Source: Polyangiaceae bacterium
GTDB taxonomy: Bacteria > Myxococcota_A > Polyangia > Polyangiales > Polyangiaceae
Reading direction: 5' to 3'
Assembly: GCA_019637295.1 (NCBI GenBank)
Contig: JAHBVX010000007.1
Location: forward strand, 372,001-436,000
Length of the DNA stretch: 64,000 nt
The translations under genes and the position numbers were made by a program. Positions 17,051 through 27,254 of this stretch are shown piece after piece. How positions within the stretch are numbered: the stretch's first letter is position 1; each line of letters opens with the position of its first letter. Under the pieces are notes generated by a model. That model was not told the origin of the DNA. It saw only the letters and a list, made by a program, of their open reading frames with translations, and made no database searches.

Positions 17051-18211
17051 TCAGTAACCAGGCTGTCCGCCGCCGCCTCCGCCGCCCGCTGCCTGCCAGA
17101 TCTCGTTGAGATCGTTGGTGAGGAAGAAAGGCCACAGGAAGAAGTACAGGATGGGGCTCTGGACGTTGGCGTTGACCACGCCGGCCATCTGCTTGGCCTC
17201 GAGCACCTTCGGCGGAAGGTTCCAAATCTGGATGATGTTGAGGATCGGAACGAAGAACAGGATGGGGTTCAGATCGTCCTTCTGACGAAACGCCTTCAGC
17301 TCGTTCACCTCTACCCAGATCAGGTACAGGAAGTAGAAGCCGCACACGAAGCCGATCAGCAGCTGCACGATCGCGTTGCGGGTCTGCCCGATGGGCCCGA
17401 AGCCGCCGGGGGCTCCGCCGTACTGCATCGGCGCGCCGCCGGACGGCACCATGGCGCCCGGAGGTGGTCCGTACCCAGGTGCTCCGCCGGGCGGTGGGCC
17501 GTAGGGGCTCCCGCTCCCCATGGGGTCGCCGGGCGGCGGTCCTCCCATCGGGCCGCCGGGCGGAGGTCCCCCCATCGGGCCGCCGGGCGGCGGTCCACCC
17601 ATCGGACCGCCGGGCGGAGGTCCCCCCATCGGGCCGCCGGGCGGAGGTCCACCCATCGGGCCGCCGGGCGGAGGTCCACCCATCGGGCCGCCCGGAGGAG
17701 GTCCACCCATGGGGCCGCCGGGCGGAGGCCCACCCATCGGCGGTCCACCCATGGGTCCACCCGGGGGAGGTCCACCCATCGGCGGTCCGCCGGGCGCAGG
17801 GCCGCCCATCGGTCCGGGCGGGGGTGCGCCGGGAAACCCACCCGGAGCGGCGAGGGTGCCACCGAGCGGGTCGGCCGCACCACCAAAGGCGGGCGCGGGG
17901 GCCGGACCCGGACCCGGCCCCGGCCCTGGGGCTGGGGGGGCCGCAACGGGCGCGGGAGCGGGCGGCGCCGGGGCCGCACCCGGTGAAGGCGGCGCTACGC
18001 CAAGCATCGTGCCCTTCAGCGCGGGCTTGGGCGCCACCGGGGGTGCCGGCGCAGCCGGAGCGTCACCCGGGCGCGGGGCGGCAGGCGGCGCGTTCATCAT
18101 GAGCATGGTGCCCTTGAACTTGGGCGCCGCCGCACCCTTCAGGTTGAACCCGCACTTCGTGCAGGTTGTCGCGGAGTCCTCGTTCTGCGTCCCACAGTTC
18201 GGGCAAAACAC
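17051..18211 (-). CDS. Zinc-ribbon protein with Pro-Gly repeats and C-terminal membrane domain
   Basis: 386 residues. An N-terminal zinc ribbon (C3, C6, C17, C20) is followed by two KGTML motifs (residues 33-37 and 66-70) in Ala/Pro-rich sequence. Then come about eight PPPGGPMGG repeats and a C-terminal domain with two or three membrane segments (LIGFVCGFYFLYLIWVEV, PILFFVPILNIIQIW, PILYFFLWPFFL) resembling DUF4234. The start is GTG with a very strong GGGAGGTGA site. Function is unknown; the repetitive linker suggests a cytoplasmic binding scaffold tethered to the membrane (inference). Confidence 0.8.
   Translation of the reverse strand: MFCPNCGTQNEDSATTCTKCGFNLKGAAAPKFKGTMLMMNAPPAAPRPGDAPAAPAPPVAPKPALKGTMLGVAPPSPGAAPAPPAPAPVAAPPAPGPGPGPGPAPAPAFGGAADPLGGTLAAPGGFPGAPPPGPMGGPAPGGPPMGGPPPGGPMGGPPMGGPPPGGPMGGPPPGGPMGGPPPGGPMGGPPPGGPMGGPPPGGPMGGPPPGGPMGGPPPGGPMGGPPPGDPMGSGSPYGPPPGGAPGYGPPPGAMVPSGGAPMQYGGAPGGFGPIGQTRNAIVQLLIGFVCGFYFLYLIWVEVNELKAFRQKDDLNPILFFVPILNIIQIWNLPPKVLEAKQMAGVVNANVQSPILYFFLWPFFLTNDLNEIWQAAGGGGGGGQPGY
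17521..17815 (-). repeat. 27-bp tandem repeat encoding PPPGGPMGG
   Basis: Approximately eight copies of a 27-base unit, interrupted by shorter PPMGG-coding units, all in frame inside the zinc-ribbon gene. Copies differ mostly at third positions (for example gga/ggc and ccc/cca), so the protein sequence is being preserved while the DNA drifts. Exact ends are approximate. Confidence 0.85.
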
Positions 18212-18457: not shown

Positions 18458-18940
18458 ATGGCTTTTTCCCTGACTGGGGAGCAAGAGCGAGAGTTCGAGA
18501 AGATCCTCGCGCGGTATCCCAACAAGATGGCGGCATGCATCCCGGTGCTGCACCTCTGCCAAGGAGCCAACGGCAACTGGGTGAGCGACGAGGTCATCAC
18601 CTTCGTCGCCGACCGGCTCGGCCTCAGCACCGCGCATGTCGCTGGGGTCACCACGTTCTACACCCTCTTCAATCGACACAAGCCTGGCGAGCACCAGGTG
18701 TGGGTGTGTCGCACGCTGTCCTGCGCGCTGCGAGGCAGCGACAAGGTCCTGGCGCACTGCAAGAAGCGACTGAAGATCGAGGAGGGGGAGACCACGAAGG
18801 ACGGAAAGATCACGCTCCGCACGGCAGAGTGTCTGGCGTCCTGCGGCAGCGCGCCGATGATGCAGGTCGACAAGTCCTACCACGAAGATCTGACCATCGA
18901 GCGGGTGGACGAAATCCTCAATCGGCTGCTCGAGAGTTGA
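18458..18940 (+). CDS. nuoE: NADH-quinone oxidoreductase subunit E
   Basis: 160 residues. The thioredoxin-like [2Fe-2S] domain has its four ligands at C84 and C89 (CRTLSC), and C125 and C129 (CLASC). The N-terminal helical part contains GVTTFYTLF, as in other NuoE proteins. It forms part of the NADH-oxidising module with NuoF and NuoG. It is the first gene of a seven-gene operon and follows a 246-base divergent region shared with the zinc-ribbon gene. Confidence 0.95.
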   Translation: MAFSLTGEQEREFEKILARYPNKMAACIPVLHLCQGANGNWVSDEVITFVADRLGLSTAHVAGVTTFYTLFNRHKPGEHQVWVCRTLSCALRGSDKVLAHCKKRLKIEEGETTKDGKITLRTAECLASCGSAPMMQVDKSYHEDLTIERVDEILNRLLES

Positions 18941-18950
18941 GAAGCGAGCC

Positions 18951-20315
18951 ATGCTGAAGCGAACCACGTACTTGTCTCACGGCTACGACGACCCCTCCGG
19001 TCACACCCTGGCCGCCTACGAGAAGGTGGGAGGCTACCAGGGGGCCCGCAAGGCGCTCGCGCTGAGCCGCGAGGCGGTCGTGGACGAGGTCAAGAAGGCA
19101 CACATCCGCGGCCGCGGCGGGGCGGGCTTCGACTGCGGCACGAAGTGGAGCTTCATGCCCAAGCAGGGCCAGAAGCCCCACTACTTGGTGATCAACGCGG
19201 ACGAGGGTGAGCCCGGCACCTTCAAGGATCGCACCATCATGGAGCGCAACCCGCACTCCCTGATCGAGGGCTGCATCATCGGCGCTTACGGGATCGGCGC
19301 ACACGTCGCGTACATCTACGTGCGCGACGAGCTCCACCTCGCCAAGGAGCGCCTGTGGGGCGCCATCGAGGAGGCGAAGGCCAAGGGCTATCTCGGCGCT
19401 CGGCCCCTCGGCAAGGACCACCCGGTCGAGGTGGTCGTGCACACCGGGGCTGGCGCCTACATCTGCGGTGAAGAGACGGCGCTCTTGAACTCGCTCGAGG
19501 GCAAGCGCGGCGAGCCACGACTCAAGCCGCCGTTCCCGGCGCAGTTCGGCGCCTTCGGCTGTCCGAGCACGGTGAACAACGTCGAGACCATCGCGGTCGT
19601 GCCGACCGTGTTTCAGGTCGGCGGGGACACCTTCAGCCGGGTCTCGGCGCTGCACGAGTTCAATGACGGCGGCGCGCGGCTGTTCGGTGTCAGCGGGCAT
19701 GTGGCGCGGCCGGGGGTGTACGAGTGCGCCGTGGGCCTCACGCTGCGGGAGTTGATCTACGACTTGGGCGGCGGGCTCTCGACCGGCAAGGAGATCCTGG
19801 GGGTGATCCCCGGCGGCTCGAGCTGCCCGGTGCATCGCCCGGACGAGATCGTCGACGTGCCCAACGACCCCCGCTTCGAGCCCTACAACGGCAAGAGCAT
19901 CCTCGATCTGCCGCTCGGGGTGGACACGTTCCGGGCGGCTGGGGGCATGCTCGGGACCTGCTGCGCCATCGTCTTGTCCGACGAAGCGGACCCGGTCCTG
20001 GCCTTCCACAACCTGATGCGCTTCTACCGCCACGAGTCGTGCGGTCAGTGCACGCCCTGCCGCGAGGGCTGCGGCTGGATGGAGCGCATCGCAGACAAGC
20101 TCTTGGCCGGGACGGCGACGATGGACGAGCTGGATCAGATCAGCGAGATCGCCTCGGACATCACCGGCAACACCATCTGCGCGTTCGGCGACGGCGCAGC
20201 GCAGCCGGCGCTGTCCTTCGTGCGCAAGTATCGCTCGCACTTCGAGGACTACATCCACACGGGCGGTAAGGGCCAGACCCGGCGGCTCGTGTCCGCCGCC
20301 GAGGTGAGCACATGA
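18951..20315 (+). CDS. nuoF: NADH-quinone oxidoreductase subunit F
   Basis: 454 residues. The FMN/NADH site shows GRGGAGFDCGTKW and NADEGEPGTFKDR. The [4Fe-4S] N3 ligands are C364, C367 and C370 (SCGQCTPC), with C410 (NTICAFGDGA). It oxidises NADH and passes electrons to the iron-sulfur chain. It begins ten bases after nuoE. Its stop overlaps nuoJ (ATGA), so nuoG, nuoH and nuoI are absent from their usual place. Confidence 0.97.
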   Translation: MLKRTTYLSHGYDDPSGHTLAAYEKVGGYQGARKALALSREAVVDEVKKAHIRGRGGAGFDCGTKWSFMPKQGQKPHYLVINADEGEPGTFKDRTIMERNPHSLIEGCIIGAYGIGAHVAYIYVRDELHLAKERLWGAIEEAKAKGYLGARPLGKDHPVEVVVHTGAGAYICGEETALLNSLEGKRGEPRLKPPFPAQFGAFGCPSTVNNVETIAVVPTVFQVGGDTFSRVSALHEFNDGGARLFGVSGHVARPGVYECAVGLTLRELIYDLGGGLSTGKEILGVIPGGSSCPVHRPDEIVDVPNDPRFEPYNGKSILDLPLGVDTFRAAGGMLGTCCAIVLSDEADPVLAFHNLMRFYRHESCGQCTPCREGCGWMERIADKLLAGTATMDELDQISEIASDITGNTICAFGDGAAQPALSFVRKYRSHFEDYIHTGGKGQTRRLVSAAEVST

Positions 20316-20929
20316 ACGCCGGCAACGCACTCTTCATCGTCGGCGCATTGCTCTGCCTCGTGGGCGCCTTGTCGACGGTGATCGCGCGCAGCCCGATCCG
20401 CGCCGCCATGGGCCTGCTGATCACCATCATCGGGATTGCGTCGCTGTTCCTCAAGCTGTCCGCGCAGTTCCTGGCGGCGATTCAGATCATCGTGTACGCC
20501 GGCGCGGTCGTGGTGCTGTTCGTGTTCGTGATCATGCTCATCGGCGCGGACACCAGCGCTGGACCGCCCAAGTCGGGGGGCTCGGTCGGGTCACGGATCG
20601 TCGCCGGCGGCGGCATGGCGGTGCTCTCGGGCCTGGGCCTGCTGCTCCTGGCGCGTTTCGACGGGCAGCCCGTGCGCTTCGGACCGGCCGCGGTCGGCCA
20701 CGGCGACGTGGAGGCCGTCGGCGGGCTGCTGTTCCGCGAGGCCATCATCCCCTTCGAGTTGGCGACGGCGCTGCTGATCGTGGCGGTGATTGGAGCCATC
20801 GCCGTGGCGCGCAGCAAGGCGCGCCCGCGGCCCGCGCCGCCGGAGAGCCACGAGTCCAAGCGGCTGTTCCACGGTCCGCTGCACCCGCGGGACGCCCAGC
20901 GCCCCCTCAGCAAGGAGCCCGCCGAATGA
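20312..20929 (+). CDS. nuoJ: NADH-quinone oxidoreductase subunit J
   Basis: 205 residues with five membrane segments. The conserved stretch AIQIIVYAGAVVVLFVFVIM is the hallmark of NuoJ helix 3, which includes the pi-bulge region important for proton transfer. The C-terminal tail after the last helix is a Pro/Arg-rich cytoplasmic extension of about 35 residues. It overlaps both neighbours by four bases, consistent with tight translational coupling. Confidence 0.94.
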   Translation: MNAGNALFIVGALLCLVGALSTVIARSPIRAAMGLLITIIGIASLFLKLSAQFLAAIQIIVYAGAVVVLFVFVIMLIGADTSAGPPKSGGSVGSRIVAGGGMAVLSGLGLLLLARFDGQPVRFGPAAVGHGDVEAVGGLLFREAIIPFELATALLIVAVIGAIAVARSKARPRPAPPESHESKRLFHGPLHPRDAQRPLSKEPAE

Positions 20930-21243
20930 GCGCCCTGGGCTACGTGCTCGAGCACTATGTGGTGCTCTCCGCTCTGCTCTTCACCATCGGGGCGATCGGC
21001 TTCCTGGTTCGCCGCAACGTGCTCATCCAGCTGATGAGCATCGAGCTGATGCTCAACGCCATCAACCTGCTGCTGGTGGCCTACAACCGGCAACACGGCG
21101 GTCCGATGACGGGCCAACTGTTCGCCTTCTTCATCATCGCCGTCGCGGCAGCCGAGGCCGCCGTTGGGCTGGCGATCATCTTGTCCTACTACCGGCTCAA
21201 AGCTTCGGTCCACAGCGACGAAGCGGATGCCCTGAAGCACTGA
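20926..21243 (+). CDS. nuoK: NADH-quinone oxidoreductase subunit K
   Basis: 105 residues with three membrane helices, the normal length. Conserved glutamates lie in the helices within LMSIELMLNAINLLLVAY and AAAEAAVGLAIILSYY, and these are part of the proton pathway. The start overlaps the nuoJ stop and nuoL begins ten bases after the stop. Confidence 0.96.
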   Translation: MSALGYVLEHYVVLSALLFTIGAIGFLVRRNVLIQLMSIELMLNAINLLLVAYNRQHGGPMTGQLFAFFIIAVAAAEAAVGLAIILSYYRLKASVHSDEADALKH

Positions 21244-21253
21244 AGGGTACCCC

Positions 21254-23848
21254 GTGGAAGCTCTGGTCAAGGTCTTTCCAGCCAACGATTTCTCGCTCCT
21301 GGCGGTGATCCTGTGTCTGCCGCTGATCGGCGCGTTCATCAACGGCGTGTTCGGCAAACGACTCGGGCGCGAGGGTGTCACGCTCATGGCGCTCGCGGCG
21401 GTGGGCGGCTCGTTCCTCGCAGCGGTCGTGTCGTTCCTGGTCCTCCGCCAGGCGCAGGCGGGCTCGGAGCAGGCCGCGCGCCTGACGTACGTCGCCTGGG
21501 ACTGGCTCAGCGTGAGTGGTCGCCACGACCTCGGGTCGATCCCCATCAAGGTGGCGTTCTCGCTCGATGCGCTGAACGCGACCATGTGCCTGGTGGTCAC
21601 TGGGGTAGGCTTTCTGATCCACCTGTACTCGACCAAGTACATGGAGAAGGACCCGGGCTATCACCGGTTCTTCGCCTACTTGAACCTGTTCATCTTCTCG
21701 ATGCTGGTGCTGATCCTGGGGGACAGCCTGCCCATCTTGTTCGTGGGCTGGGAGGGCGTGGGGTTGTGCAGCTACCTGCTCATCGGCTTTTGGTTCACGG
21801 ACGAGAAGAACGCCCAAGCCGGCAAGAAGGCCTTCATCGTCAATCGCATCGGCGACTTCGGGCTGCTCGTCGCGATGGCGCTGTTCGTCTACCACGTGGG
21901 GGCGCTCGACTGGATTGGCATCGAGGGTGGCCGCAGCCGCTTGCTCGAGCCGGTCAAGCTGTGGCCGATCGGGAACGTCGTGCCGCTCAGTAGCGCGCTA
22001 CCCGAGAGCGCCGCGGCATGGCTCAACACGCCGCGCTACGTCACCGCGGCGTCGCTGGTCGGCCTGGCCTTGTTCCTGGGTTGCGCCGGCAAGAGCGCGC
22101 AGATCCCGCTGTACGTCTGGCTGCCGGACGCCATGGCGGGTCCTACGCCGGTCAGCGCGCTGATCCACGCCGCCACGATGGTGACCGCAGGTGTGTACCT
22201 GGTCTGTCGCCTGTCATCGGTGTTCGTGCTCGCGCCCGCCGTGATGTTCACCATCGCGCTGGTCGGTGCACTCACCGCGCTACTCGCCGCGAGCATCGCC
22301 TTCGCGCAGAACGACATCAAGAAGGTGCTCGCCTACTCCACGGTGAGTCAGCTCGGCTACATGTTCCTGGGCGTAGGGGTGGGCGCGTTCAGCGCAGGGT
22401 TCTTCCACGTCGTGACCCACGCCTTCTTCAAGGCCTGTCTGTTCCTCGGCGCCGGCAGCGTGATCTACGCGATGCACAAGCGTATCCACGACACGGACAC
22501 GTCGCAGGACATGCGCAAGATGGGCGGGATGAAGAAGTACATGCCGGTCACCTTCGCCACCTTCGTGGGGGCGTGGGTGGCCATCATCGGCTTCCCGGGG
22601 ACCAGCGGCTTCTTCTCCAAGGACGAGATCCTGCTCAAGGCCCTGACCAGCCAGATCCAGAGCCCGCTGCCCGGCGGCAAGATCACCCAGATGACCCGCG
22701 CGGGGGAGCAGACGGTGCTCGAGCTGTGGCAGTGGCCGAGCTGGGGCAATCAGGTGCTGTTCGCCATGGGCGTCGTGGGCGCCGTGATGACGGCGTTCTA
22801 CATGTCCCGCTTGGTGTTCGGGATCTTCTGGGGTGACTTCAAGGGCTGGACCATCAAGAGGAAGTGGAAGGCGCCCGCGCACCACGACCACGACGATCAC
22901 GACCACCCTCATCACCACCATGACCCCGACGAGCCGCTCGAGGGCCCCGCGCCCGTCGAGAGCCCCTGGCAGATGTGGCTGCCGCTGGCGGTGCTCGCGG
23001 CGTTGTCGCTCGGCGGCGGCTTCCTCAACGCCCACCTCTTGCACCTGCACCCGATGGACGACTGGCTCGGTCCGGTGTTCGCGACCGCGGCCCAGAACGT
23101 GACCGCGGCGGAGGGCGGGCTGTCCCTGGTGCTCGCCTTCGGCATCGGCGCTTTCGCCCTCGGGCTCGGCGCCGCCTACTGGGTCTACCGGCTGCAGGGC
23201 GGGGAGCCGGCGCGCGCCTTCGTCGAGCGGATGCCCGGGCTGCACCGCTGGGCGCAGGACAAGTTCTACGTGGACGAGGCGTACGACGAGGCGGTGGTGG
23301 AGTCCGCCGCCGCGCTGGCGGACACGGCCGCCGCAGCCGACAAGTACGTCGTCGACGGCATCGTCGCCAAGCTGACCTCCGGCGTCGTGCAACTGGCGGG
23401 AGCTGGGCTGAGGTTCGTTCAGACCGGCAAGGTGCACACCTACGCGGCTGTGATGGTGGTCGGTACGGCCGCGGTCGGCTGGTTCTTGATCGCGCCGCAC
23501 GCTCAGGCCCGGACGGTGCATCAGAGCGCCGGTCAGTACGGCGTCGTGGCCGCGCCGGGTTTTGGCTACCAGTACCGCTGGGACACGGACGGGGACGGGC
23601 AGTGGGACTCGGAGGAGTTCTCCAGTCAAATGCAGCAGGACGTCACGCTGGGCTTTGGTGAGAACAAGACGCTGCGCTTGCAGGTGAAGAACGCCTTTGG
23701 ACGCACCGCCGAGCGCAGCATCACCGTCTCCCGCCCGAAGCTCGACCCCACGCGCGGGCCGGCCACGGTGATTCAGATCGAGCAGCAACCCGACGGGACC
23801 GTGCGGGGAGTCCTGCCCGGGCAGCAGCCGACCGGAGGTGTCCAGTGA
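21254..23848 (+). CDS. nuoL: NADH-quinone oxidoreductase subunit L with extra C-terminal domain
   Basis: 864 residues, about 250 more than E. coli NuoL. The antiporter-like core is intact, with GWEGVGLCSYLLIGFW, the discontinuous-helix region KSAQIPLYVWLPDAM and AQNDIKKVLAYSTVSQLGYM. A His/Asp-rich loop occupies about residues 540-564 (HHDHDDHDHPHHHHD). After the last helix (about 731-750) a soluble region includes YRWDTDGDGQWDSEEF and a beta-rich stretch ending ERSITVSR, like a PKD fold with an acidic calcium-type loop. The start is GTG. Confidence 0.94.
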   Translation: MEALVKVFPANDFSLLAVILCLPLIGAFINGVFGKRLGREGVTLMALAAVGGSFLAAVVSFLVLRQAQAGSEQAARLTYVAWDWLSVSGRHDLGSIPIKVAFSLDALNATMCLVVTGVGFLIHLYSTKYMEKDPGYHRFFAYLNLFIFSMLVLILGDSLPILFVGWEGVGLCSYLLIGFWFTDEKNAQAGKKAFIVNRIGDFGLLVAMALFVYHVGALDWIGIEGGRSRLLEPVKLWPIGNVVPLSSALPESAAAWLNTPRYVTAASLVGLALFLGCAGKSAQIPLYVWLPDAMAGPTPVSALIHAATMVTAGVYLVCRLSSVFVLAPAVMFTIALVGALTALLAASIAFAQNDIKKVLAYSTVSQLGYMFLGVGVGAFSAGFFHVVTHAFFKACLFLGAGSVIYAMHKRIHDTDTSQDMRKMGGMKKYMPVTFATFVGAWVAIIGFPGTSGFFSKDEILLKALTSQIQSPLPGGKITQMTRAGEQTVLELWQWPSWGNQVLFAMGVVGAVMTAFYMSRLVFGIFWGDFKGWTIKRKWKAPAHHDHDDHDHPHHHHDPDEPLEGPAPVESPWQMWLPLAVLAALSLGGGFLNAHLLHLHPMDDWLGPVFATAAQNVTAAEGGLSLVLAFGIGAFALGLGAAYWVYRLQGGEPARAFVERMPGLHRWAQDKFYVDEAYDEAVVESAAALADTAAAADKYVVDGIVAKLTSGVVQLAGAGLRFVQTGKVHTYAAVMVVGTAAVGWFLIAPHAQARTVHQSAGQYGVVAAPGFGYQYRWDTDGDGQWDSEEFSSQMQQDVTLGFGENKTLRLQVKNAFGRTAERSITVSRPKLDPTRGPATVIQIEQQPDGTVRGVLPGQQPTGGVQ

Positions 23849-25716
23849 GCCCTGCCACGAAGGCCGTGTTCGAGCTGGTGCCCTACCTGCTCGCTTTTGG
23901 CGTCGGCGCGCTGATACCGCGGCGTCAAGGCACCCTCGAGCGCGTCGCGATCGGCGTGGTGGCAGCGCTGTCGCTCGCGCTCGTCCGCGGCCTGTGGCCC
24001 GCAGCAGCAGACGCTGCCACCCCGGCGGTGGCCCCTCCGGAGGAGTGGCCGCACCTGCTGAACGTGATCGTGTTCGTGCCCATCCTGGGCGCCCTGTTCG
24101 TGCTGTTCCTTCCGCGCCAGACGCCCGCGCTGCTGCGGCGCGTGACCATGGGTGTGCTGGGGCTCGACTTGTTGGCGTCCCTGATGCTGCTGCGCGTGCC
24201 GATGAGCCGCGGGTGGCACTTCCAGTACGTCGTCGATTGGCTGCCGAGCTTTGGCATCCGCTACCACGTCGCCATCGACGGCGTGAGCCTGTGGATGGTG
24301 CTGCTGTCGACGGTCACCACCCCCATCGCGGCCTACGTGTCCTTCGGCAGCATCAAGAAGCGCACCAAGGAGCTGTGCTTCTCGATCTTGCTCCTGCACG
24401 GCGCCATGCTGGGGGCCTTCGTCTCGCTCGATCTCTTCCTGTTCTACGTGTTCTGGGAGCTGATGCTCGTGCCGATGATCATCCTGATCGGCGTGTGGGG
24501 CGGCGTGGAGAAGATCAAGGCGGCGTACAAGTTCTTCCTCTACACCATGGCGGGCAGCGTGCTCATGCTCGCGGCCATCTTGTACCTGGTGTGGACCCAC
24601 AAGAGCCTCGCTGGCTACGCGACCTTCGACTACCTGGCGCTGGCCAACGTGGTACTGCCGCGCACCGCCGCCTGGCTGTGCTTTGGCGCCTTTGCGCTCG
24701 CGTTCGTGATCAAAGTGCCGATGTTCCCGCTGCACACCTGGTTGCCGGATGCGCACGTGCAGGCGCCGACCGGGGGTTCCATCATCTTGGCAGCCGTCCT
24801 GCTCAAGCTTGGCACTTATGGCTACATCCGCTTCTGCATGGGCCTGTTTGGCGGCCCGGCCTGGAGCGCCGCGGCGAACCTCGCTGGGCTCGCCGTAGGC
24901 GGCGGCATCCTGTACGGCGCGCTGGTCGCCTGGCGGCAGGATGACATCAAGCGCCTGGTGGCCTACTCCTCGGTCGCGCACATGGGCTTCGTGATGCTGG
25001 GGCTGTTCAGCGGTACGCGGCCCGGCGTCGAGGGCGCCATCCTGCAGATGGTCAATCACGGCATCTCCACGGGCGCGCTCTTCTTGCTCGTGGGCGTGAT
25101 CTACGACCGCCGTCACACCCGCGAGGTGCGCGAGTTCGGAGGCCTGGCCAAGGTGATGCCCGTGTACGCGGCCGTGTTCGTGCTCGTCACCATGTCGAGC
25201 ATCGGCGTTCCCGGCACCAACGGCTTCGTCGGCGAGTTCATGATCATCATGGGCACGTTCGTCTCGCTGCCCCTCGGCTCCCACGGCGGGCTGCAGGCCG
25301 TGCTGGCGGCGTTCGGTGTGATCCTGGCGGCGGTCTACATGCTCGCGGTCGTGCAGAAGATGTTCTTCGGCCCGCTGACGAACCCGAAGAACGCGCAGCT
25401 CTCCGATCTGAACGTGAGGGAGACTATCGCGCTGGCGCCGCTGGTGGCCCTCATCTTCATCATCGGCCTGTTCCCCTCGCTGTTCCTCGAGCGAACGCGA
25501 GACTCGGTCCAGGTGGTGCTCGAGCGCTACACCGAGGGGCGCAAGTCGTTCCAAGAGATGGATCCGAGCTCCACCGTCGCGCGCTTGCTGCCCCGGCGCG
25601 GTGGGGCGCTCGAGACTGGCTACCCGGAGCCGCCGGGTCAGGTTGACGCCAAGCCCCCCGACCCCAGCACTCCCGAAGCGGAAGCCGCGCTCGACCCGCA
25701 GCAGGGGCAACCATGA
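23845..25716 (+). CDS. nuoM: NADH-quinone oxidoreductase subunit M
   Basis: 623 residues. The proton-channel core includes the Glu-bearing helix VFWELMLVPMIILIGVWGG, FALAFVIKVPMFPLHTWLPD and DIKRLVAYSSVAHMGFVMLG. It starts at a GTG overlapping the nuoL stop. Compared with E. coli NuoM (about 510 residues) it has extra length at both ends, notably a hydrophilic Pro-rich C-terminal tail of about 60 residues. It pumps protons as one of three antiporter-like subunits. Confidence 0.95.
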   Translation: MSPATKAVFELVPYLLAFGVGALIPRRQGTLERVAIGVVAALSLALVRGLWPAAADAATPAVAPPEEWPHLLNVIVFVPILGALFVLFLPRQTPALLRRVTMGVLGLDLLASLMLLRVPMSRGWHFQYVVDWLPSFGIRYHVAIDGVSLWMVLLSTVTTPIAAYVSFGSIKKRTKELCFSILLLHGAMLGAFVSLDLFLFYVFWELMLVPMIILIGVWGGVEKIKAAYKFFLYTMAGSVLMLAAILYLVWTHKSLAGYATFDYLALANVVLPRTAAWLCFGAFALAFVIKVPMFPLHTWLPDAHVQAPTGGSIILAAVLLKLGTYGYIRFCMGLFGGPAWSAAANLAGLAVGGGILYGALVAWRQDDIKRLVAYSSVAHMGFVMLGLFSGTRPGVEGAILQMVNHGISTGALFLLVGVIYDRRHTREVREFGGLAKVMPVYAAVFVLVTMSSIGVPGTNGFVGEFMIIMGTFVSLPLGSHGGLQAVLAAFGVILAAVYMLAVVQKMFFGPLTNPKNAQLSDLNVRETIALAPLVALIFIIGLFPSLFLERTRDSVQVVLERYTEGRKSFQEMDPSSTVARLLPRRGGALETGYPEPPGQVDAKPPDPSTPEAEAALDPQQGQP

Positions 25717-27254
25717 CCTTCGACGTCGTCTACGGCCTCTCCCCGCTCTTGGTGGTGGCGCTCGGAGCGCTGCTGCTCATGCTGGCGGAGGCGTTCGGAA
25801 AGCCGAATCCCCAGGGGCTCGCGCCGACCGGCGAGGTGAGCGATGCGGGCGCCGGCCGCGCCGGCGAGCTGGGCATGGGCGCCGCGGTGGTGCTGTTCGT
25901 GGGCGCCGCCCTGAGTCTGGGCGTGTGGCTCGCGGGACCGGACAACCTCGTCGGCCTGGAGCTGACGCGTCCGTACCTGATCTGGGACCGCTTCACGGTC
26001 TTCGTCTGCTTCACGCTGTGTCTCGGCGGCGGCCTGTCGTGCCTGCTCGCCGGCGGCTACTTGACGGAGCACGAGATCGATCGCGCCGAGTTCTTTCCGT
26101 TGGTGCTCTTCTCGACGGTGGGGGCCATGGCGCTCGCCGCCGCCGGAGAGCTACTCACGCTGTTCGTCGCGCTCGAGACCATGTCCCTGGGCGTGTACGC
26201 CCTGGTCGGCCTCCGGCGCACGCCGCGCTCGAGCGAAGCCGCGCTGAAGTACTTCTTGCTCGGCTCCTTCGCGGCAGCGCTCATGCTCTTCGGGGCGGCG
26301 CTGCTGTATGGGGCGACGGGGCGCACGGATCTGGCGGGCATCGGCCAGGCCATCGCAGCCATTGGGCAGGGGGAGGGGCCGGGCGCGGCGCAGGTGTTGA
26401 TCGCGCTGGTGCTCGTCGTGGTGGGCCTGGCGTTCAAGGTCAGCGCCGTGCCGTTCCACATGTGGACGCCAGACGCGTACGAGGGCGCTCCCACGCCCGC
26501 GACCAGCTACATGGCCGTGGCCGTCAAGACCGCCGCGTTCGCCGTGATGGTGCGCGTGCTGCTGATCGCCTTCGGAGACGAGCGCCTCACGAGCTGGGCG
26601 AGCGGCTGGCCCCCGGTGCTGGCGACGCTCGCGGTGGCCAGCATGACGGTGGCGAACCTCGTCGCCGGCCGGCAGAGCTCGGTCAAGCGTATGCTCGCGT
26701 ACTCCTCCATCGCGCACGCGGGCTATGCCTTGGTGGCGGTGGTCGCGACCATCCGCAGCCCGGCCGCGGAGGGCAGCATCCTCTTTTACCTGCTGACCTA
26801 CACGGTCTCCACCGCGGGCGCCTTTGGCGCGCTCATTCTGTGTGGCAGCCGTGGCAAGGAGGCCGTCAGCTACGAGGATTTGGCGGGTATCGCCAAGCGT
26901 CACCCCGCCGCGGCGATGGCCTTCAGCCTGTTCTTGCTGTCGCTGGCGGGTGTCCCGCCCACAGCGGGTTTCTTCGGCAAGTTGTACGTCTTCCAGGCCG
27001 CGATCGACGCCGAGCTGTACGTGCTGACGGTGGTCGGTCTGCTCAACAGCCTGGTGGGCGCCTACTACTACCTGCGCGTCATCGTGTTCATGTACATGCG
27101 CGAGCCCGCCCCCGGCGCAACCCTCGCAGTACCGATGCGCTCGGGCTACGTCGCCTCGGCGCTGGTGATCGCTGCGGTGCTCGTGATCGCGCTGGGCGTG
27201 CTGCCGAACGTGACTCTCGAGTGGGCCGCCATCGCGACCGTCGGCAGGAGCTGA
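25713..27254 (+). CDS. nuoN: NADH-quinone oxidoreductase subunit N
   Basis: 513 residues. The third antiporter-like subunit, with FVALETMSLGVYALVGL, VGLAFKVSAVPFHMWTPDAY and SSVKRMLAYSSIAHAGYALV. A hydrophilic loop (GKPNPQGLAPTGEVSDAGAG) lies after the first helix. It overlaps nuoM by four bases and ends the operon at a strong bidirectional hairpin. Confidence 0.95.
   Translation: MTFDVVYGLSPLLVVALGALLLMLAEAFGKPNPQGLAPTGEVSDAGAGRAGELGMGAAVVLFVGAALSLGVWLAGPDNLVGLELTRPYLIWDRFTVFVCFTLCLGGGLSCLLAGGYLTEHEIDRAEFFPLVLFSTVGAMALAAAGELLTLFVALETMSLGVYALVGLRRTPRSSEAALKYFLLGSFAAALMLFGAALLYGATGRTDLAGIGQAIAAIGQGEGPGAAQVLIALVLVVVGLAFKVSAVPFHMWTPDAYEGAPTPATSYMAVAVKTAAFAVMVRVLLIAFGDERLTSWASGWPPVLATLAVASMTVANLVAGRQSSVKRMLAYSSIAHAGYALVAVVATIRSPAAEGSILFYLLTYTVSTAGAFGALILCGSRGKEAVSYEDLAGIAKRHPAAAMAFSLFLLSLAGVPPTAGFFGKLYVFQAAIDAELYVLTVVGLLNSLVGAYYYLRVIVFMYMREPAPGATLAVPMRSGYVASALVIAAVLVIALGVLPNVTLEWAAIATVGRS

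Follow-up and report, generated by a model that had tools for sequence, protein, structure and literature searches.

The core subunits of respiratory complex I show high conservation, and the accessory parts known so far are mostly separate subunits. The 64,000-nucleotide stretch of a Polyangiaceae genome analyzed here, referred to as the window, encodes a NuoL, the antiporter-like core subunit, with a long C-terminal extension, and this raises the question of what the extension is, how widely it is shared, on which side of the membrane it lies and what it might do for the complex. The gene (nuoL, 21254..23848, + strand) is a single open reading frame of 864 residues, compared with 613 for the E. 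coli NuoL chain; the excess, originally put at about 250 residues, was measured as 251. About 118 of these follow the last membrane helix (TM16), and the remainder consists of longer loops, longer ends and a His-rich loop. The protein scores 648.9 bits with the NCBIfam NuoL equivalog model NF005141 (cut-off 556) and 634.5 bits with TIGR01974 (cut-off 407.5), and is also matched by the Pfam antiporter models. Because a standard annotation model names the protein plain NuoL, the additional domain is easily missed. By computation, the NuoL of most sampled Polyangia proves to be a two-part protein, in which a normal antiporter-like subunit is followed by one C-terminal domain of the PKD type, with an Ig-like fold.

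The gene lies between reading frames at 20926-21243 and 23845-25716, named nuoK and nuoM on our reading, by which the gene order in the window is nuoE, F, J, K, L, M, N. In many related loci, NuoL has relatives of J, K, M and N next to it. The GTG start of nuoM (23845..25716, + strand) at 23845 overlaps the nuoL stop by 4 nt (GTGA), in agreement with the earlier proposal that the extension is in frame and that nuoM overlaps its stop. A Shine-Dalgarno-like GGAGG for nuoM is located within the last nuoL codons (23834-23838); such a motif was found in 109 of 167 loci, and an overlapping nuoM start in 111. The placement of this motif within the end of nuoL may explain the recurring GGxQ-type C-termini.

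The window NuoM starts ~65 residues before the NuoMs of other families, with an apparent extra N-terminal membrane hairpin; among the NuoM rows listed, most of the Polyangiaceae type align from residue 1-30 (L066 from 67) and the others from ~58 or later. The genes for the complex I of the window seem to form two clusters ~240 kb apart, at C23:141000-157000 (L274) and at 18458-27254 of the window. A NuoH-family gene that precedes nuoE by ~241 kb on this contig (C23:148757), its neighboring frames being identified by eye, may belong to the complex. A second complex I cluster was found on contig C21 (L275), where the NuoL frame of 607 residues was matched by the extension profile only to position 79 and thus has no extension. 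On the minus strand of the window, at 17051-18211, a predicted protein combines a zinc-ribbon-like N-terminal start (CPNCG...CTKCG) with a long run of PPPGGPMGG repeats, followed by hydrophobic stretches.

The end of the NuoL core has the order TM15, long lateral helix, TM16, as seen from alignment of the window protein to 6hum_F (430-649) and 4he8_L (435-598), and the helices predicted by AlphaFold2 agree with this order, the lateral helix at low confidence. The lateral helix and the linker to TM16 span residues 648-727 (23195..23434, +; low confidence at 671-727), and TM16 spans residues 728-746 (23435..23491, +). The extension (residues 747-864) is divided into a predicted PKD/Ig-like β-sandwich (residues 752-828; 23507..23737, +) and a variable tail (residues 829-864; 23738..23845, +) that also codes for the nuoM Shine-Dalgarno-like motif. 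An AlphaFold2 model of residues 718-864, built with 30 relatives, has one helix, TM16, followed by predicted strands at model positions 35-41, 44-49, 56-60, 77-81, 87-95 and 101-109, with pLDDT values of 94-97 in the sandwich. The full-length model agrees, placing TM16 at 728-746 and the first strand from residue 752 (pLDDT 90-94), so that the predicted linker between TM16 and the domain is only ~5 residues. The extension is thus predicted to be folded, with a conserved turn, and not disordered. A soluble domain with PKD-like strands and the motif DTDGDGQWD had been anticipated after the last membrane helix, and the predicted Ig-like sandwich, with this motif at 777-785, bears this out.

Foldseek returned PKD1 of Vibrio Epp (6aem) as the best PDB match (E 7.9e-4, TM-score by target 0.67) and PrtV PKD1 as the fourth. 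The 50 VIA-align rows listed were mainly FN3 and Ig domains (Z 7-8.5), with none titled PKD, and the structure alone therefore indicates only an Ig-like fold; it is the sequence that supplies the PKD family assignment. Pfam gave no PKD match to the window tail at E<=1, the only match being EF-hand_6 at E 0.062. Among tails of the window (short) type, 9 of 29 matched Pfam PKD weakly (best E 2.2e-4), as did 4 of 15 of the long type. Matches are frequent among the tails of Polyangia outside the order Polyangiales, 28 of 43 matching PKD and 27 of 43 PKD_4 (E<=0.1; PF00801 and PF18911). When scanned singly, the representatives of 7 of the 13 non-Polyangiales families (f13, f21, f22, f24, f26, f27 and f29) scored above the Pfam cut-off for PKD or PKD_4, with a best score of 52.7 bits (cut-off 27), while those of four (f14, f15, f23 and f31) fell below it and those of f16 and f30 gave no PKD match. 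Searched against the PDB, a profile of the 43 tails finds collagenase PKD domains at 3.8e-15, and the window-type profile yields weak matches only. It is the comparison of the two profiles with hhalign (probability 97.6, E 4.7e-12) that links the window tail to the Pfam-recognized PKD tails of other Polyangia. PKD domains typically carry a WDFGDG-type core motif, and motifs of this type read YRWDTDGDG in the window and FDFGDG or WDFDGDG in other Polyangia. Nine families (f2-f5, f7, f9-f12) have an insert within the PKD domain, so that the YxYxW motif and the NxFG turn are separated by a median of 136 residues in the long type versus 41 in the short type. The insert (~95 residues at median; L036, L039-L047, L049, L050, L052-L054) has a recurring N-x-A-x-V ... 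L-x-x-G-x(5)-G pattern and possibly forms a second small domain.

A search of 59 Polyangiales genomes yielded 56 NuoL loci, 52 of which could be aligned to the C-terminus. Two of the others are cut by contig ends (L028, L056), one has its gene in two frames (L031) and one is a C-terminal piece (L055) that does carry the extension but was not counted; no NuoL of the window type was found in three of the genomes (G010, G036 and G045). All 52 aligned proteins, which cover the 12 sampled families of the order, have the extension, refuting its absence from close relatives. Named relatives that carry it are, among others, Sorangium cellulosum, Polyangium sp. and Minicystis rosea, from which family f1 is taken to be Polyangiaceae. 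The recurrence in the order, together with the presence of the extension in records of S. cellulosum and M. rosea titled as complete genomes (L070, L077), led us to reject an assembly error.

In the class Polyangia, 116 genomes were searched and 78 gave a match, 61 of them outside Polyangiales; 53 of these 61 were read. A PKD-type tail was present in 43 of the 53 (13 of 16 families), six loci of family f18 had other tails of 60-134 residues, and four had tails of 0-46 residues. The PKD domain is missing in f17, f20, one f15 locus and one f29 locus, in addition to f18. The f18 tails (L206, L209, L212, L214-L216, L220; 60-134 residues) lack PKD similarity and have in common a stretch around LRxTLGAxP; they may represent a replacement or a decayed domain. 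When 20 of the 38 Polyangia genomes without a match were searched again, three gave no match, 16 gave weak ones (best E 1.7e-13 to 6.2e-34) and one (G072, f18) revealed a NuoL with a non-PKD tail. A search of 140 genomes across the phylum Myxococcota gave 78 with a match outside the class, and these best matches stop at profile positions 74-102, TM16 ending at ~83. None of the 25 loci read from these other classes has the extension (tails of -2 to 31 residues). Likewise, the chain stops 20-28 residues past the first residue of TM16, with no extension, in 30 loci from Phycisphaerales, Geobacterales, Gemmatimonadetes, Chloroflexota and other groups (a few labeled just ‘Deltaproteobacteria’ or ‘bacterium’; L106 and L136, with broken frames, left out), which sample the bacteria outside Myxococcota and are not a full survey. 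In the genome of the window, the PKD profile matched only NuoL, the next match having an E of 0.46. The extension is thus kept in 25 sampled families of a single class (12 + 13), and what was noticed in one gene is a class-level variant of complex I.

The origin of the fusion was explored with trees in which the PKD labels came from HMMs built on the same families, which makes them partly circular; the Pfam scans are the independent tests. When 60 NuoL cores without the extension, hand-picked from 239 with loss, truncated and long-branch rows left out, were placed on a mixture-model tree, 31 PKD-bearing NuoLs fell on one side of a branch with modest support (SH-aLRT 81). On a 179-row FastTree tree, which takes in L053, L210, L213 and L218, the PKD label forms two large blocks and needs seven changes, compared with a mean of 53.1 after shuffling; these are two main gains, one row on a long branch (L053), and non-PKD rows that lie within the blocks singly or in pairs, one of which (L028) is a contig-end artefact. 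We favor, as not proved, a single gain early in Polyangia with later loss in some families, with two gains as the alternative reading.

NuoL has 16 membrane helices and a lateral helix on the cytoplasmic face, from which it follows that TM16 runs outward and that the C-terminus is periplasmic. The charges agree with the positive-inside pattern, with five Lys/Arg in the TM13-TM14 loop of the window protein and none in the TM14-TM15 loop. Disulfides form in the periplasm, and of 145 distinct tails of >=60 residues 124 have no cysteine, while 18 of the 21 Cys-bearing tails have two or four; the three with an odd number each have a Cys within four residues of TM16. The even numbers in several lineages suggest disulfides. 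On the basis of topology, charge pattern and paired cysteines, we place the PKD domain in the periplasm with high confidence; that its side depends on NuoL topology had been foreseen. The domain had also been called adhesion-like. A lone PKD domain that begins ~5 residues past TM16 in a subunit of the inner membrane is not the architecture of an adhesin, exposure outside the outer membrane is unlikely for a domain in this position, and a role in adhesion was set aside as unsupported.

The loop rich in His and Asp, first described as ~25 residues long, is indeed dominated by these residues (nine His and six Asp) and is shorter, at 17 residues (543-559; 22880..22930, +). It lies between TM13 and TM14, outside the PKD domain, on what NuoL topology predicts to be the cytoplasmic side. 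Comparable loops are present at the same place in NuoLs of Phycisphaerales, where they hold as many as 19 His (L115), and in cyanobacterial 6hum_F. A special metal site was accordingly rejected, and the loop appears to be an ordinary NuoL feature, separate from the PKD domain.

With a linker of only ~5 residues, the domain must sit right over TM16. Passages of PMC8762328 describe solved complexes in which the lateral helix extends from the tip as far as TMH16 and adjoins ND2 and ND4L; in the E. coli and T. thermophilus enzymes, the site where TMH16, ND4L TMH1 and ND2 TMH6 meet is bound by ND6 TMH4. TM16 thus anchors the distal end of the NuoL lateral helix and has NuoN, NuoK and NuoJ as neighbors, and the PKD domain would cap it on the periplasmic face, where it would pack on these three subunits. 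Such a cap would lock the lateral helix and its anchor in place, and the locked anchor would help keep the NuoL-M-N pump module attached to the remaining membrane arm, so that the fused domain would do the job given in eukaryotes to separate accessory subunits. In excerpts of PMC3274701, E. coli NuoL cut before TM16 gave ~42% of complex I as judged by NADH-dehydrogenase activity, in a fragile form with 7% quinone reductase activity; the same source mentions that better values have been reported elsewhere for mutants of this kind. Extensions of core subunits also overlap the places that accessory subunits occupy elsewhere, as described in parts of PMC8357420 for the NuoB, NuoI and NuoF tails of E. 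coli. On the most economical reading, the PKD domain could be a covalently attached structural brace of complex I, to which we give roughly an even chance. Against this explanation, the dN/dS of the extension exceeds that of the core in 20 of 23 pairs (which share some members; one pair reaches 0.91), some Polyangia lack the domain, and NuoLs elsewhere work without it. The best explanation as a whole, a PKD fusion gained once, periplasmic and serving as a structural brace, is slightly more likely than not.

The main rival to the brace is docking, in which the domain would offer a periplasmic contact to a quinol-oxidizing complex or another respiratory partner, as a counterpart of NDUFA11. In mammals, NDUFA11 binds beside ND5 TMH16 and forms the sole contact between CI and CIII within the membrane, according to passages of PMC8762328 and PMC6926478. 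A candidate docking loop is the conserved NAFG turn of the window (residues 813-816; 23690..23701, +), which is aligned with a DPRW-type turn in Polyangia outside Polyangiales. An aromatic residue is found at this turn in 124 of 139 distinct extensions (counted by HMM column) and is absent from the two ColH PKD domains aligned, marking the turn as a candidate contact. The ~5-residue linker, however, favors contact with complex I itself, and we consider docking unlikely and the brace the favored reading. Still less likely is the specific version in which the domain is a fused respirasome connector to a particular quinol-oxidizing complex on the periplasmic side; if true, the Polyangia would have reached by domain fusion the solution that mitochondria found in NDUFA11.

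A periplasmic calcium-responsive module that stabilizes or regulates complex I is improbable. The putative calcium loop DTDGDGQWDSEE (residues 777-788; 23582..23617, +), which contains DTDGDGQWD, fits the EF-hand-type pattern D1 D3 D5 G6 D9 E12. Of 139 distinct extensions, 82 contain a loop of the form D-x-[DN]-x-[DN]-G-x-x-[DENST], compared with a mean of 0.3 when the residues are shuffled, and 17, that of the window among them, have the full 12-residue pattern. The loop is nevertheless absent from Sorangium, Polyangium, Minicystis and other members in which the PKD domain is present, so that calcium can be at most a local stabilizer and not the general purpose of the domain. The metal-binding domain that was originally proposed is thus plausible for the window protein and does not extend to the family as a whole. 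In proteins that retain the acidic loop, calcium may make the PKD domain stiffer.

Neutral decoration, a fused domain of little function kept by history, would fit the fast evolution of the extension and its losses. It is hard to reconcile with the occurrence of the domain in 25 families of one class, with a conserved fold and turn, and with an extension dN/dS below 1 in all 23 pairs (0.05-0.91), and we rate it as highly improbable. Least probable of all is an envelope tether, by which the domain would bind peptidoglycan or another envelope component and fix complex I in place: among its structural and sequence neighbors are PKD and similar domains from secreted proteins that act on polymers, but one small membrane-close domain has little reach, and no peptidoglycan-binding family was among the Pfam matches listed for the tails.

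Our search of the open-access literature found no report of a NuoL with a PKD domain. A folded extracytoplasmic domain on a proton-pumping core subunit is a natural experiment on the TM16 anchor and on the needs of the periplasmic face of the complex. The window NuoL shares its core, the TM15-lateral helix-TM16 order and its complex I gene neighbors with E. coli 3rko_L, T. thermophilus 4he8_L and cyanobacterial 6hum_F. The latter two, aligned to residues 598 of 606 and 649 of 656, end near TM16, whereas the window protein continues for ~118 residues that include the PKD domain. With the PKD domains of Vibrio Epp, PrtV and collagenases (ColH), the extension has in common the Ig-like fold and the profile and structure matches. 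It differs from the aligned ColH domains in the aromatic turn, and from secreted PKD proteins in that its lone PKD domain forms the C-terminus of a proton-pumping respiratory subunit. The C-terminal extensions of E. coli NuoB, NuoI and NuoF and the NuoG loop are likewise core-subunit extensions at accessory-subunit places, as described in parts of PMC8357420; they are on the cytoplasmic arm, and the C-terminal tails are extended chains, unlike the PKD domain. The extra helix TMH17 of Yarrowia ND5 and NDUFA11, described in passages of PMC8762328, are additions around TMH16, the same place as that of the PKD domain in Polyangia, but take the form of membrane helices or a separate subunit rather than a fused Ig-like domain.
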